Under the pieces are notes generated by a model. That model did no database searches. It was given only the letters and a program-made list of their open reading frames with translations, and was not told the DNA's origin. Shown piece after piece: positions 27,971 to 32,683 of a stretch of DNA of 42,705 bases. Every line of letters starts with the position of its first letter. The stretch's first letter is position 1. The DNA comes from an uncultured Bacteroidales bacterium (GTDB taxonomy: Bacteria > Bacteroidota > Bacteroidia > Bacteroidales > UBA4417): NCBI GenBank assembly GCA_903913645.1, contig CAIWMA010000381.1, positions 1-42,705 on the forward strand, written 5' to 3'. The position numbers were made by a program, and so were the translations under genes.

Positions 27971-28381
27971 TTGGATAAGGACAGGTACATAAACCGGAAA
28001 ACTTTCATGAGGCTGGCAACTTTAGGTTTAGCTGCGGCATTTATGGCACTGTGGGGTTTTCTGACCGGCAAAAGCAAAAAGTTATCGGAGCAACCTGTGG
28101 TTAGTACAATCAATGTAGCTAAACTTGGAATGGGCATTTTCCTTTTCGACAAATATATACTGGTAAAGTCTGATGCTTCAATAAAAGTCTTTTCAAATAA
28201 ATGCACCCATGCAGGTTGCAGAATCAACCAGGAAATTAGCGGTCAGTTGGTTTGTCCCTGCCATGGCTCCAGGTATGACGCATCGACAGGCAAGGTTTTG
28301 CAAGGACCGGCAGGGCTTCCATTATCAACCATTCCGTTTAGTACTGATGCAAAAACCGGTGAAATCACAATAAAAATCTAA
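27971..28381 (+). CDS. Rieske [2Fe-2S] protein of a cytochrome bc-type complex
   Basis: This is a membrane-anchored electron-transfer subunit of 136 residues. The N-terminus RKTFMRLATLGLAAAFMALWGF combines a twin-basic motif resembling Tat signals with one membrane helix. The cluster-binding boxes are complete: CTHAGC (Cys78, His80, Cys83) and CPCHGSRY (Cys95, Cys97, His98). Ser100 and Tyr102, the residues that raise cluster potential in bc1 Rieske proteins, are present. The start is TTG at 27971: a TAA at 27962-27964 closes the frame just upstream and the only internal ATG (28007) would cut the twin-basic region. It stops two bases before the cytochrome b-c fusion, so the two form one operon and probably one complex. 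Confidence 0.9.
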   Translation: MDKDRYINRKTFMRLATLGLAAAFMALWGFLTGKSKKLSEQPVVSTINVAKLGMGIFLFDKYILVKSDASIKVFSNKCTHAGCRINQEISGQLVCPCHGSRYDASTGKVLQGPAGLPLSTIPFSTDAKTGEITIKI

Positions 28382-28383
28382 CA

Positions 28384-31101
28384 TTGAAAATTCCCGAAAA
28401 CATACGCAGGTATATTGTTTTTGATACATTTGGATGGGTTGCCGTGGCTTCTGTTATCCTGTGTGCGGTTTCGGGTGCATTGCTTGCAATTCCATACGAT
28501 ATCACGTCACCTTATTTATCGGTTACAAAACTTGTTACCGCCAATCCTCCAGCCTCATTGTTGCGGAATATGCATTACTGGAGTGCGCAATTATTTCTTA
28601 TACTTACTCTTATACACATTTTCGACCATCTTTGGAAAGGTACAGAAGGCAATATTAAAAAGAAGAGTATATGGTTCAGGCTTGTACTTTCGATCGTATT
28701 TACAATTTATGCTATGCTTTCCGGTTTTATTCTGAAAGCAGACGGCGACAGTTTGCAGGCGCACCGGATACTTTCATCAATTGTAAACAGTCTTCCATTG
28801 ATCGGAACTATGTTGCAGCAGACTTTCATCGGTACTGAAGGTAATTTCCAGGTATTGTATATTCAGCATGCTGCAACCGCGACTGTGATACTTTTTGTGA
28901 TTATTATGGAGCATGCCAGAAGTTTAAAAGTAAACCTTGGAACATTGCTGATAACGACTGGACTAATCACAATTGTAAGTTTTCTTTTCAGGGCGCCGAT
29001 TAACGGATTGAATGATGCCATAATGAAAGGACCTTGGTATTTTGTCGGACTGCAGGAAACATTGCACTGGGTTTCGAATCCTCTGCTGATTTCCATCGGA
29101 CTGATTCTTTTTCTTGTATTGCTTTATCTGATTCCATGGGTAAAGCCTTTGTATTCAAAGATTATCAAACAATTTTTTGTTGTGATGATCATTCTTTATG
29201 CTTTGCTGACCATAACCGGGTTTTTCTTTCGTGGACCTATGTGGCAATGGCAATGGCCATGGGAGAAAGAATATACAATACAACCGTTGTTGCATTCCGA
29301 AAAAATCAACTTTTCACCCGCCGACACTACACAAATTGATATAGTTCAGGGACATGCTGAAGGCTGTGTTTCCTGCCATAAAGGAATGACTGGTTTTTCG
29401 GATGCGCATAAGCCTGAATACATCGGTTGTTTTTCGTGCCATGGCGGTGATCCGCTTACCCTCGATAAAACTAAAGCCCACAGCACAATGTTTCCTGTTC
29501 CGGGAAATTTATCCAAAGCTCCTCAAACCTGTGGAAATGTGGGTTGTCATCCGGGAATTGTAAGCCGGGTTGATATTTCACTAATGACATCTTTAAGTGG
29601 AATAATCAGTGTTGATAAATGGGTTTTTGGCGAAACCAAGGATCTGAATATGGCTTCGCATATAAACGACATTGGAAACACAGCTTCCGGGCAGCACCTC
29701 AGAAATTTGTGTGCCGGATGTCATTTAGGAAACGAAAAAACGAATACAGGTCCCGCAGAATGGCTCGAAAGAGGTGGTGGTTGCCTTGCATGTCATCTGT
29801 CGTATGATGAAAAATCGCAATTCACTTTAGCCCAAGTGAAACGAAAGCAGAAATCGGGTGCACCATTACCTATGTTCCATCCTTCACTAAACCTCAATAT
29901 TACCAACGATAAATGTAAAAGCTGTCATAGTCGTTCGGGCCGGATTTCAATGAATTACGAAGGCTGGCATGAAACAGAACTGAAACCTGAGAACGTAAAA
30001 GGCAAAGATAACTTTCAGATTTTACCCGATAAGCGTGTTTTTGTAAAAATGCCCGCGGATATTCATCATCAGAAAGGAATGCTCTGTATCGATTGCCACG
30101 GATCATATGAATTGATGGGAGATGGAAAGCATTACGCCCATAAGGAAGAAGCTGTAAAAGTGCAATGCAGCGATTGCCATACGCAAAAAGCATACAGGCA
30201 AAAACCCCTTGCCGGAACAGACCAGGAAACGCAGCTTATATCGTGGTCGAGGAAGTTTAAAAATGAGGGAATCCAGTTAATTCTCACACAAAAGGGAGGA
30301 GTTCCGCTTGTAAATACTCTTGTGGAAGATGAAGGCTCAAAGTTGAGTATGATTAAAAAATCCGGAAAAGAAATTGTAATCATGAAACCTCCCGCCAAGG
30401 TTTGTACCGAAGGCAAAGCCCATTCCAGATTAAGTTGCGAAGCCTGCCATACAGCGTGGGCACCGCAATGCATTGGCTGTCACAACGGCTACGATAGCAA
30501 GGTTAAAAGTTTCGATATTTTGAAAAACACAGCAAAAGCAGGAACCTGGGTCGAATATTCAACCGAAGGAGTAGCCGAAATGCCGGTTCTGGGAATCAAT
30601 GCTTCCGATAAAACAAGGAAAAACGGGCAAGTCGGTACGTTTACTCCCGGAATGATTATGACGATTGACAAAGGCTCATTCAGGAAAGGTGAAAAAACTG
30701 TTTTTCACAGGTTGTTTGCTCCGTCATCGGCACACACTACGCAACGAGAAGGGAGAAGTTGTAAATCGTGCCACAACGATCCTTTGGCAATAGGGTATGG
30801 GCGCGGGAAATTATCCTATTCTGTTGCCGGGAAATGGACTTTCGATCCTCTTTATCAGAATAATAAATATGACGGATTGCCGGAGGACTGTTGGACTGGA
30901 TTCCTTAAGGAACGAAAGGATCAGGCTTCAACGCGAATTGGAATGCGTCCTTTTAACCTTGTGGAGCAAAAGCGAATTCTCACCGCAGGTGCATGTTTAA
31001 CCTGTCACGATGCTGCATCAAATGTAATGAAACGCAGCCTTGTTGATTTTCAGAAAGTGATTAGCGAGAAAAGTAAGCGTTGCATTATTCCTGTATTCTG
31101 A
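28384..31101 (+). CDS. cytochrome b (b6/subunit IV type) fused to a twelve-heme cytochrome c domain
   Basis: This is a quinol-oxidising membrane protein with a built-in electron wire, 905 residues, TTG start. Seven helices (about 17-37, 63-84, 99-117, 157-178, 185-202, 234-253, 264-282) match cytochrome b6 plus subunit IV. Heme b ligands are His64/His78 (13 residues between) and His162/His177 (14 between, the b6f spacing). The loop after helix five reads GPWY at 216-219, where PEWY is usual. From residue 320 the protein is c-type: eleven CXXCH motifs starting at Cys328, 349, 443, 467, 511, 568, 595, 685, 696, 793 and 871, plus CX4CH at 383-389. With the Rieske protein it should pass electrons from menaquinol to periplasmic or extracellular acceptors. 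The acceptor is unknown. Confidence 0.92.
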   Translation: MKIPENIRRYIVFDTFGWVAVASVILCAVSGALLAIPYDITSPYLSVTKLVTANPPASLLRNMHYWSAQLFLILTLIHIFDHLWKGTEGNIKKKSIWFRLVLSIVFTIYAMLSGFILKADGDSLQAHRILSSIVNSLPLIGTMLQQTFIGTEGNFQVLYIQHAATATVILFVIIMEHARSLKVNLGTLLITTGLITIVSFLFRAPINGLNDAIMKGPWYFVGLQETLHWVSNPLLISIGLILFLVLLYLIPWVKPLYSKIIKQFFVVMIILYALLTITGFFFRGPMWQWQWPWEKEYTIQPLLHSEKINFSPADTTQIDIVQGHAEGCVSCHKGMTGFSDAHKPEYIGCFSCHGGDPLTLDKTKAHSTMFPVPGNLSKAPQTCGNVGCHPGIVSRVDISLMTSLSGIISVDKWVFGETKDLNMASHINDIGNTASGQHLRNLCAGCHLGNEKTNTGPAEWLERGGGCLACHLSYDEKSQFTLAQVKRKQKSGAPLPMFHPSLNLNITNDKCKSCHSRSGRISMNYEGWHETELKPENVKGKDNFQILPDKRVFVKMPADIHHQKGMLCIDCHGSYELMGDGKHYAHKEEAVKVQCSDCHTQKAYRQKPLAGTDQETQLISWSRKFKNEGIQLILTQKGGVPLVNTLVEDEGSKLSMIKKSGKEIVIMKPPAKVCTEGKAHSRLSCEACHTAWAPQCIGCHNGYDSKVKSFDILKNTAKAGTWVEYSTEGVAEMPVLGINASDKTRKNGQVGTFTPGMIMTIDKGSFRKGEKTVFHRLFAPSSAHTTQREGRSCKSCHNDPLAIGYGRGKLSYSVAGKWTFDPLYQNNKYDGLPEDCWTGFLKERKDQASTRIGMRPFNLVEQKRILTAGACLTCHDAASNVMKRSLVDFQKVISEKSKRCIIPVF

Positions 31102-31203: not shown

Positions 31204-31938
31204 TTAGAAAAAGAATAGCTTAATGCTGGCAGCAATCAGCACAATAGATAATACACGTTTTAGATTGAGTTCCGAAATGGTACGGCTTCCCATAGCAGAA
31301 CCTACAAGTCCGGCTACCATAACACCCAAAACCCAATAGATCAGATTCGGCTGAAAGCTAAACTGCGCAGTCATCAGACCGGCCAGACCACTGGCTGAAT
31401 TTAGAAAAATAAACAATGCAGATGCTGCCGAAGCTTCTTTTATGCGTGCATATTTTGCTAATAACAGGATGGGCGACAATAAAATTCCTCCGCCAATTCC
31501 GATTATCCCGGAAACCAATCCAAGCACGAGTCCGGTTCCAAGCGCCAAAACCAGCGGTGGATCATTCGTTACATCATTCTCTTTGTTGCCAACCACCAGC
31601 ATCCTGGTAACTGCAATCAGCAGCATGATGCCCAAAATAATTTTGTATGCCGTCGGATTAATGCTGAATGTCGCCCCGATATAAGCAGCCGGAATGGAGG
31701 TGATCAGGAATGGAACCACCTTTCGCCACCTGAAAAATCCTGCCCTGTAATACGAAATAAAAGCAATTGCCGAAACCACAAGGTTCAGAATCAATGCATA
31801 ATAGCGTATGGATTCGGGCGCAAAGCCAAAAAGTGCCATCAGTGCCAGGTAGCCGCTGGCTCCGCCGTGGCCGACAGATGAGTAGAAAAAAGCAATAAGC
31901 ATCAAGCCTATCACAAAAAGTATTTCATAGTGTACCAT
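31204..31938 (-). CDS. TauE/SafE family sulfite/organosulfonate exporter-like membrane protein
   Basis: This inner-membrane protein has 244 residues from the ATG at 31936-31938, chosen because AAAGGAG lies just upstream and the frame further left adds only a polar stretch. It starts with a helix containing SSVGHGGASGYLALMALFG, the first half-repeat signature. The second half-repeat has LVSGIIGIGGGILLSPILLL, the matching TauE/SafE motif. About eight helices are visible. Family members move sulfite, sulfoacetate or similar anions; the substrate here is unknown. It converges on the cytochrome gene with a 102-base gap and is not in its operon. The next minus-strand gene upstream is mobA, 154 bases away. 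Confidence 0.88.
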   Translation of the reverse strand: MVHYEILFVIGLMLIAFFYSSVGHGGASGYLALMALFGFAPESIRYYALILNLVVSAIAFISYYRAGFFRWRKVVPFLITSIPAAYIGATFSINPTAYKIILGIMLLIAVTRMLVVGNKENDVTNDPPLVLALGTGLVLGLVSGIIGIGGGILLSPILLLAKYARIKEASAASALFIFLNSASGLAGLMTAQFSFQPNLIYWVLGVMVAGLVGSAMGSRTISELNLKRVLSIVLIAASIKLFFF

Positions 31939-32092
31939 GGTTCTCCTTTCCAATTCATTTTTTATTCGGGAGGCTGTCCTGTTTCCGGGGCAACCCATCG
32001 GTCAGCATTTCATAAATCAACCTGATTGTTAGAAATGAAAACTCGGAGAATTACTGTGCAATATTAAGAAAGAAAGGCGTTCGGCAAGAGAA

Positions 32093-32683
32093 TTATTTTC
32101 TGTTATTCATCAGGTTTTCGGCTGTTGCCAGATCATGTTTTGAATTGACATTTAAAAACAGGTTTTCAGTGTAAAAAGCTAAATTATTATTGATATCCAG
32201 CTTGTTAATGATAATTTCTTCAAACAAATCAGGAAGTTTGTAATTGATTTTATGAATAAATGCTTTCATTTGATCCAGTACCGACACATGGTAAAAACCG
32301 CAAAGTGGCTCATAATGTTGATTTCCCTGCCAGGAAACTGCAACCTGGTAACCATCAGAATTTTTCAGGATGAACGACATTAATTCTTTTGATACGAAAG
32401 GCAGATCGCAGGAAAGGACCATGTTTTTCTCCGTTTTACTTTGCTTCAAAGCGGAATATATTCCTCCCATAGGGCCAATACCGGGAATTTCATCAGGTAT
32501 AGTTTTTAATCCAAATGAGAGGTATGCATCAGAAGATGTGCTGATAATAATAGTACTGCATATTTCGGAAAGTGACTGAATGGCGTAACTTATAAGTGCT
32601 TTCCCGCAAAGTTCCTGCAACCCTTTGTCGGCACCCATGCGTGCGCTTTTTCCACCTGCAAGAATAATCCCTGTTACCTCCAT
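32093..32683 (-). CDS. mobA: molybdenum cofactor guanylyltransferase
   Basis: This cytoplasmic enzyme attaches GMP to molybdopterin to form the guanine dinucleotide cofactor used by DMSO-reductase-family enzymes. It has 196 residues, the usual MobA length. The nucleotide-binding signature IILAGGKSARMGADKGL is at residues 5-21, followed by IPDEIPGIGPMGGIYSAL (62-79) and the metal-site CDLPFVS (96-102). It begins one base after the stop of the QueA-type gene, so the two are co-transcribed; no functional link is known. Presence of MobA implies a molybdoenzyme elsewhere in the genome, since none is in the window. Confidence 0.9.
   Translation of the reverse strand: MEVTGIILAGGKSARMGADKGLQELCGKALISYAIQSLSEICSTIIISTSSDAYLSFGLKTIPDEIPGIGPMGGIYSALKQSKTEKNMVLSCDLPFVSKELMSFILKNSDGYQVAVSWQGNQHYEPLCGFYHVSVLDQMKAFIHKINYKLPDLFEEIIINKLDINNNLAFYTENLFLNVNSKHDLATAENLMNNRK

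Follow-up and report, generated by a model that had tools for sequence, protein, structure and literature searches.

A Rieske protein paired with a single-chain cytochrome b-dodecaheme cytochrome c in Bacteroidales: a candidate bc-type quinol oxidase

Introduction

In Geobacter, the ext/bc cluster GSU2930-2937 encodes a twelve-heme cytochrome (ExtM), a ten-heme cytochrome (ExtN), a Rieske protein (ExtO), a cytochrome b (ExtP) and ExtQ, and was proposed to specify an inner-membrane bc complex conserved in the genus (PMC2825233, PMC5877670). A related pair of genes was analysed here in a 42,705-nucleotide stretch of DNA from an uncultured Bacteroidales bacterium (contig CAIWMA010000381.1, assembly GCA_903913645.1; hereafter the window), in which a Rieske gene is followed by one gene for a cytochrome b fused to a dodecaheme cytochrome c. 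A complex of Rieske protein, cytochrome b and dodecaheme has thus already been proposed, of which the fusion represents a variant; the statement in an earlier, sequence-only reading of the window that bc variants with multiheme partners occur in other phyla is borne out by the Geobacter cluster, where the components are encoded by separate genes. On balance, we favour the view that the pair forms a menaquinol oxidase core that passes electrons through the fused twelve-heme wire to a periplasmic oxyanion module.

Other described systems share some traits with the pair. Canonical bc1 and b6f complexes likewise have a Rieske protein, two b hemes (with b6-like spacing here) and seven core helices, but carry a monoheme cytochrome c1 or f where twelve hemes are found here, and their PEWY and LPWDQ motifs are not kept here; identity of the c part with cytochrome c1 or f was rejected, since a 12-heme domain stands in place of a single-heme domain. 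CbcL of G. sulfurreducens, of the CbcL/MtrH/MtoC type, is also a fusion of a di-heme cytochrome b with a multiheme cytochrome c and a quinol oxidase towards the periplasm (PMC9129911, PMC6295460), but it has an N-terminal c-domain with nine hemes, six helices of the HydC/FdnI type and no Rieske partner. Membership of the CbcL group was rejected on the reversed domain order, the Cytochrome_B family of the membrane part and the presence of the Rieske protein. The Rieske/cytochrome b complexes of the anammox bacterium Kuenenia (Kustd1480-1485, Kuste4569-4574 and Kuste3096-3097) include multiheme c subunits; their hexa- and octaheme subunits are, however, separate chains, two of the complexes come with NAD(P) oxidoreductases, and the c-domain fused to cytochrome b in Kuste3096-3097 has two hemes (PMC12954380). 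In Caldithrix abyssi, a Rieske protein and a cytochrome b (Cabys_2558/2557) are encoded near a periplasmic molybdoenzyme that they were proposed to feed, but this set is linked to Nap nitrate reductase and the tetraheme NapM, and no dodecaheme fusion was reported (PMC5317091).

In the searchable literature, which does not include key reviews, we found no account of the single-chain combination, of its b-domain or of its partner operon; an earlier one is possible. What is new is the fusion in a single chain, its spread over Bacteroidales, Ignavibacteria and Calditrichia, its divergent quinol-oxidation (Qo) site and its molybdoenzyme company. A quinol-oxidising core and a multiheme wire in one polypeptide would have a fixed stoichiometry and need no mobile c-type partner, the quinol site departs from motifs usually held essential and offers a natural test of what a Qo site needs, and the system suggests that a widespread group of anaerobes has a branch of respiration that had gone unrecognised.

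Architecture of the gene pair

The Rieske [2Fe-2S] protein (positions 27971..28381 of the window, forward strand; 136 amino acids (aa), TTG start) has a single N-terminal helix and the cluster motifs CTHAGC and CPCHGS, and was matched by Pfam PF00355 (3.6e-12) and by the NCBIfam b6f Rieske model (1.7e-14). After a spacer of 2 bases follows the open reading frame of the fused chain (28384..31101, forward strand; 905 aa, TTG start), which confirmed the claim of the sequence-only reading that an intact Rieske gene lies immediately ahead of it. Pfam assigned the first part of the chain to Cytochrome_B (9e-12) and found matches of cytochrome c7/c3 type in the second part.

The membrane part (28384..29241) resembles cytochrome b6 plus subunit IV. 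The seven helices claimed for it are present in an AlphaFold2 model of moderate quality (pLDDT 64) at residues 16-35, 55-85, 94-119, 155-178, 185-201, 233-249 and 255-281, and the best Foldseek matches of this part were cytochromes b of bc1 complexes (E 1e-7). The helix count suggests that the N-terminus lies inside and the C-terminus outside; with an odd number of helices and the N-terminus inside, the c-domain would reach the periplasm with no need of a signal peptide. This domain (residues 324-905, 29353..31098, forward strand) is homologous to ExtM. The chain contains 11 CXXCH motifs and one CX4CH, together 12 c-heme sites, so that the earlier count of twelve holds for the sites, while the canonical motif occurs just 11 times. 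In 2000 shuffles of the fused protein, CXXCH occurred 0.037 times on average and at most once.

Distribution of the fusion and of its Rieske partner

In an evenly sampled set of 295 genomes of the order (183 genera), the fusion was found in 20 genomes (13 genera), in all 20 as one uninterrupted frame encoding 903-928 aa, with identities down to 39%. Nearly every genome of the window's own genus has it, partly just as pieces cut by contig ends, and a scan of GTDB genomes yielded 26 fusion loci in Bacteroidales, Lentimicrobiaceae, Ignavibacteriaceae and Calditrichia. A search of plasmids gave no match. That two genes were joined by an assembly or annotation error, which the sequence-only reading had named as a possible refutation, was ruled out: dozens of assemblies made independently of one another show the same frame, one of them being a finished chromosome of 3.3 Mb. 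Nothing was found in favour of such an error, and one copy has an interrupted chain. That copy (L033, G010:C223) has an in-frame stop after five CXXCH, near a contig end, and may reflect decay or a sequencing error.

Mapping of the co-occurrence of fusion and Rieske gene, as had been suggested, showed a Rieske gene directly upstream on the same strand, at a distance of at most 78 bp or overlapping, in 30 of the 34 loci with enough upstream sequence. Other genes are inserted between the two in L030, L045 and L085. No Rieske gene was found near the fusion in L031, nor by a Pfam Rieske search of its genome (G014, 90% complete). These four loci have a small zinc-ribbon protein directly upstream of the fusion, which by eye resembles the N-terminus of IS1595-type transposases; in L031, L045 and L085 it is accompanied by OsmC-like and thioredoxin genes, beyond which the Rieske gene lies where one was found. 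The Rieske protein, the b-heme ligands described below, the topology and the conserved pairing speak for the proposed bc-type complex in which a multiheme outlet replaces cytochrome c1 or f.

The cytochrome b domain and the quinol site

Two bis-histidine (bis-His) b-heme pairs with b6-like spacing, H64/H78 in helix B (H-X13-H, 28573..28617) and H162/H177 in helix D (H-X14-H, 28867..28914), agree with the two pairs given in the sequence-only reading and are invariant in 28 aligned homologues; helix-B residues around the ligands are also retained. The Qo region is conserved in a form of its own. In place of PEWY the chain has GPWY (residues 216-219, 29029..29040, by alignment with conventional cytochromes b of its own and related genomes), with G216, P217 and W218 invariant and residue 219 being Y or F (GPWY or GPWF) among the aligned homologues. 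The segment LKADGDSLQA (residues 117-126, 28732..28761) stands where other cytochromes b have LPWDQ or LPWNE; L117, D120, Q125 and A126 are invariant or nearly so, and the loop reads LK-A/G-D-x-D-S-x-Q-A. The fused b-domain therefore lacks both PEWY and LPWxQ, by which Rieske/cytochrome b complexes are recognised. Other cytochromes b of these genomes have A/SPWY and retain LPWDQ, which makes the loop change more distinctive than the change of the Qo motif. In mitochondrial cytochrome b, one candidate for the proton acceptor is the glutamate of PEWY, and the Qo motif is known to vary systematically (PMC9162462); given these variants and the A/SPWY cytochromes b, absence of PEWY and LPWDQ does not exclude membership of the superfamily.

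With the ExtP model NF040969 the fused b-domain scored 57 bits (equivalog cut-off 290), and the cytochrome is thus far from ExtP, whereas another cytochrome b of the same genome (G000:C57) scored 253 bits. A simple fusion of ExtP, ExtQ and ExtM was accordingly rejected for the b part, as ExtP fits the second cytochrome b far better, and an ExtQ component was rejected as the ExtQ model gave no match to the chain. The set to which this second cytochrome b (420 aa, APWY, ExtP-like) belongs also comprises an eight-heme cytochrome of 769 aa and a Rieske protein of 189 aa (L084:2470-6642).

The dodecaheme domain

NCBIfam model NF040943, built on ExtM of the selenite/tellurite cluster of Geobacter, matched residues 321-891 of the chain (E 2.3e-78; profile positions 15-592 of 599) with a score of 264 bits (equivalog cut-off 800). 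Judged by this model, through which the homology was established, the c-domain is an ExtM homologue and not an ExtM equivalog. The locus thus shares with Geobacter a full-length dodecaheme of the same family accompanied by a Rieske protein and a cytochrome b, but these are separate genes there and b and c form one chain here. In the window, no ExtH, ExtI, ExtKL or ExtN gene was found as a neighbour of the fusion. As a side observation, NCBIfam NF040968, named ExtO, iron-sulfur subunit, spans 416 positions and, like ExtN, matches the heme region of the fused chain, whereas the published ExtO is a Rieske protein of 14.1 kDa; this model may be mislabelled.

Among 38 c-domains, fused and unfused, all 12 heme attachment sites are invariant. 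The third site (CGNVGCH, residues 383-389, 29530..29550) keeps both cysteines and the histidine in all 38 and the CX4CH spacing in 37, the remaining one (L070) having CXXCH; a complement of twelve c-hemes is therefore a fair reading of 11 CXXCH and a conserved CX4CH. Eight histidines outside the motifs are invariant, as are Met 401, 578 and 757, and Met 369 is found in 37 of the 38. This pattern fits 8 bis-His hemes and up to four that would be ligated by His/Met or otherwise. The nine hemes of CbcL were all assigned as bis-His (PMC9129911) by the same reasoning, and the two c-domains thus differ. AlphaFold2 models (pLDDT 64 for the whole chain and 53 for the c-domain alone) were too poor for assignment of distal ligands.

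The ligand count also bears on the alternative that the dodecaheme itself reduces the terminal acceptor, such as an oxyanion of sulfur, selenium or tellurium, at one or more active-site hemes without bis-His ligation, to which cytochrome b and Rieske protein just supply electrons. With 8 invariant histidines for 12 hemes and the conserved methionines, some hemes are probably His/Met-ligated or open; equally, 8 His and 4 Met could fill all 12 distal positions and leave a pure wire, and the models do not place the ligands. Comparison with solved catalytic structures gave just a weak match to nitrite reductase (5.6e-5). Persistence of the domain without cytochrome b, described below, would suit a catalytic role, as would an octaheme cytochrome gene that lies upstream of the fusion on the opposite strand in L037 (4702-6357) and L039 (4718-6382), the L037 product belonging to the tetrathionate reductase family (TIGR04315, 1e-153). 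Taken together, catalysis by the dodecaheme appears unlikely.

In four genomes (G193, G094, G141 and G194), which are among the 10 dodecaheme carriers of the phylum sample given below, the dodecaheme forms a protein on its own, 634-655 aa long and in three of them predicted to have one helix at the N-terminus; it is encoded near a molybdoenzyme gene (MopB) as in fused loci. No Rieske gene adjoins it in any of the four; the fused b-domain had no match in G193 (a single contig) and G194, and in G094 and G141 only distant, conventional cytochromes b matched. In a midpoint-rooted tree of the c-domains, the four unfused forms fall at no fewer than three separate places among fused ones. Most simply, cytochrome b and the Rieske protein would have been lost several times and the dodecaheme retained; secondary loss is favoured by synteny and nesting, under a root set at the midpoint only. 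Since the dodecaheme was kept without the bc core, its role beside the molybdoenzyme would not depend strictly on that core. A stand-alone ExtM-like multiheme protein of 861 aa with one helix at each end (3e-48) was also seen in G012 (L019:769-3354), a genome of the window's own genus in which the full fusion had no match.

The molybdoenzyme operon and the proposed electron path

In relatives, an operon of MopB, an iron-sulfur subunit (FeS), NrfD, two YedE-type transporter genes and a rhodanese recurs beside the fusion, either divergent or downstream. The recurrent MopB was closest to thiosulfate reductase PhsA (2e-133, below the cut-off), and one of the transporter halves is related to the thiosulfate transporter TsuA. 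The molybdoenzyme operon lies within a few kb of the dodecaheme in 20 of 39 loci. In a sample of 296 genomes of the phylum, a full-length dodecaheme was found in 10, all of which have a MopB of the Psr/Phs type, out of 34 genomes with this MopB; a naive hypergeometric probability of this co-occurrence, which ignores shared ancestry, is 1e-10. In one further genome (G283), fragments of ExtM were present at the ends of contigs, and MopB was absent at the threshold applied. The sequence-only reading had noted that no oxidase or reductase gene is adjacent, which is true of the window; relatives, by contrast, usually have the Psr/Phs-type operon alongside, and in the genome from which the window comes it sits on a different contig (C469, L078:5029-11464; MopB-FeS-NrfD-YedE-YedE-rhodanese-rhodanese), unlinked to the complex in the assembly and with a MopB 83% identical to that of L027.

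Under the favoured menaquinol-oxidase reading, the Rieske/cytochrome b complex would oxidise menaquinol at the inner membrane. Of the two electrons, one would go by way of the Rieske protein into the covalently attached twelve-heme domain, the counterpart of cytochrome c1 or f, while the second would cross the pair of b hemes, so that energy may be conserved by a Q-cycle. As a periplasmic wire, the multiheme domain would hand electrons to an oxyanion-reducing module, presumably for oxyanions of sulfur, selenium or arsenic, whose most regular member would be the Psr/Phs-type molybdoenzyme (MopB, FeS, NrfD) together with the YedE/TsuA-like sulfur transporters and rhodaneses. This view is supported by conservation of the b-heme ligands in 28 homologues and of the heme sites in 38, by the full-length ExtM homology, by the regular Rieske neighbour, by the co-occurrence and linkage with the molybdoenzyme operon, by the dodecaheme remaining beside the MopB operon where cytochrome b and the adjacent Rieske gene have been lost, and by the arsenate-induced psrA that follows the fusion in Melioribacter roseus (see below).

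Electron flow in the opposite direction, from a periplasmic sulfur or metalloid donor through the twelve-heme domain and cytochrome b to quinone, was considered because CbcL-type fusions are thought to be bidirectional (PMC6295460) and because genes for a type III sulfide:quinone reductase (selenoprotein subtype model), a DsrC/TusE-like protein and DsrE2 lie near the fusion in L035 (11586-14423). A similar set is found in L046 (13784-16609); the family assignments come from the L035 copies. The presence of a Rieske protein in the route, however, points to quinol oxidation, and the sequences gave no sign of donor chemistry; reverse flow thus seems quite improbable.

Extracellular electron transfer, to which the sequence-only reading had extended its proposal, would make the complex an inner-membrane gate from which electrons pass through the dodecaheme and periplasmic carriers to an outer-membrane porin-cytochrome conduit, with Fe(III) or other external acceptors. 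It is suggested by the homology to ExtM, whose Geobacter cluster includes the porin ExtI (PMC5877670), by Fe(III) reduction in Melioribacter roseus (PMC3534657), and, in L024 and L029, by a Porin_O_P/ExtI-like gene next to the fusion; the L024 neighbours are related to ExtI (7.6e-10) and ExtH (6.9e-12), and those of L029 are of the same kinds by sequence. A search of the window's own genome for an ExtI-like porin was, however, without match, no porin-cytochrome cluster adjoins the fusion in the other neighbourhoods examined, and the window has no ExtKL or ExtN gene. With no outer-membrane conduit linked in most loci and ExtI-like porins at these two relatives only, extracellular wiring was not specifically supported and is rather doubtful.

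Melioribacter roseus as a cultured holder

The finished genome G247 (L068) encodes a fusion 43.5% identical to that of the window, whose gene overlaps that of a Rieske protein; next come a MerR gene and MopB-FeS-NrfD. The same order is published for M. roseus as MROS_1773 (MerR) and MROS_1774-1776 (psrABC), from which we infer that G247 is this organism. Its genome paper reported that no cytochrome bc1 genes were found (PMC3534657), and a search of its text for Mros1771 and Mros1772 found neither. The psrA gene was hardly transcribed unless arsenate was supplied, which raised its transcription strongly, and its product was proposed as the main arsenate reductase of M. roseus (PMC5492636). Because this bacterium carries the fusion, though reported to be without bc1 genes, the bc question is open to test in culture.

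Several points weigh against the favoured reading. The Psr/Phs-type MopB occurs without the dodecaheme in 24 of its 34 genomes. The molybdoenzyme has a quinone-linked NrfD of its own, so that the complex is not needed for its electrons; the complex and MopB-FeS-NrfD may instead be parallel, alternative or opposed branches that share a periplasmic heme wire. With the PEWY glutamate absent and LPWDQ lost, the Qo site is non-canonical, and bifurcation at it is not assured. Growth of M. roseus was not stimulated by sulfur, thiosulfate or sulfite (PMC3534657), and a sulfur role is therefore not to be assumed for this organism.

A broader proposal, which is speculative but worth stating, is that a dedicated branch of bc-coupled, energy-conserving respiration of metalloid or sulfur oxyanions exists in Bacteroidota, Ignavibacteria and Calditrichota, in which a single chain with a remodelled quinol site would supply, or be supplied by, a Psr/Phs-type molybdoenzyme, the bc core having been lost repeatedly and the wire kept.

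Other genes of the window

Downstream of the pair, two genes outside the complex lie on the reverse strand. The first encodes a TauE/SafE-type permease (31204..31998), a family found in 8 of 27 neighbourhoods, and the second a MobA-like molybdenum cofactor guanylyltransferase (32093..32683). The latter recurs near the fusion and was identified by motif in L027, L035, L036, L040, L069, L071, L073, L074 and L085. Upstream, positions 1-27593 form a large carbohydrate-use region (SusC/SusD-like pairs, invertase-like glycosidases, a sugar kinase and an MFS transporter), which is partly common to close relatives at the same place (L022 and L028).

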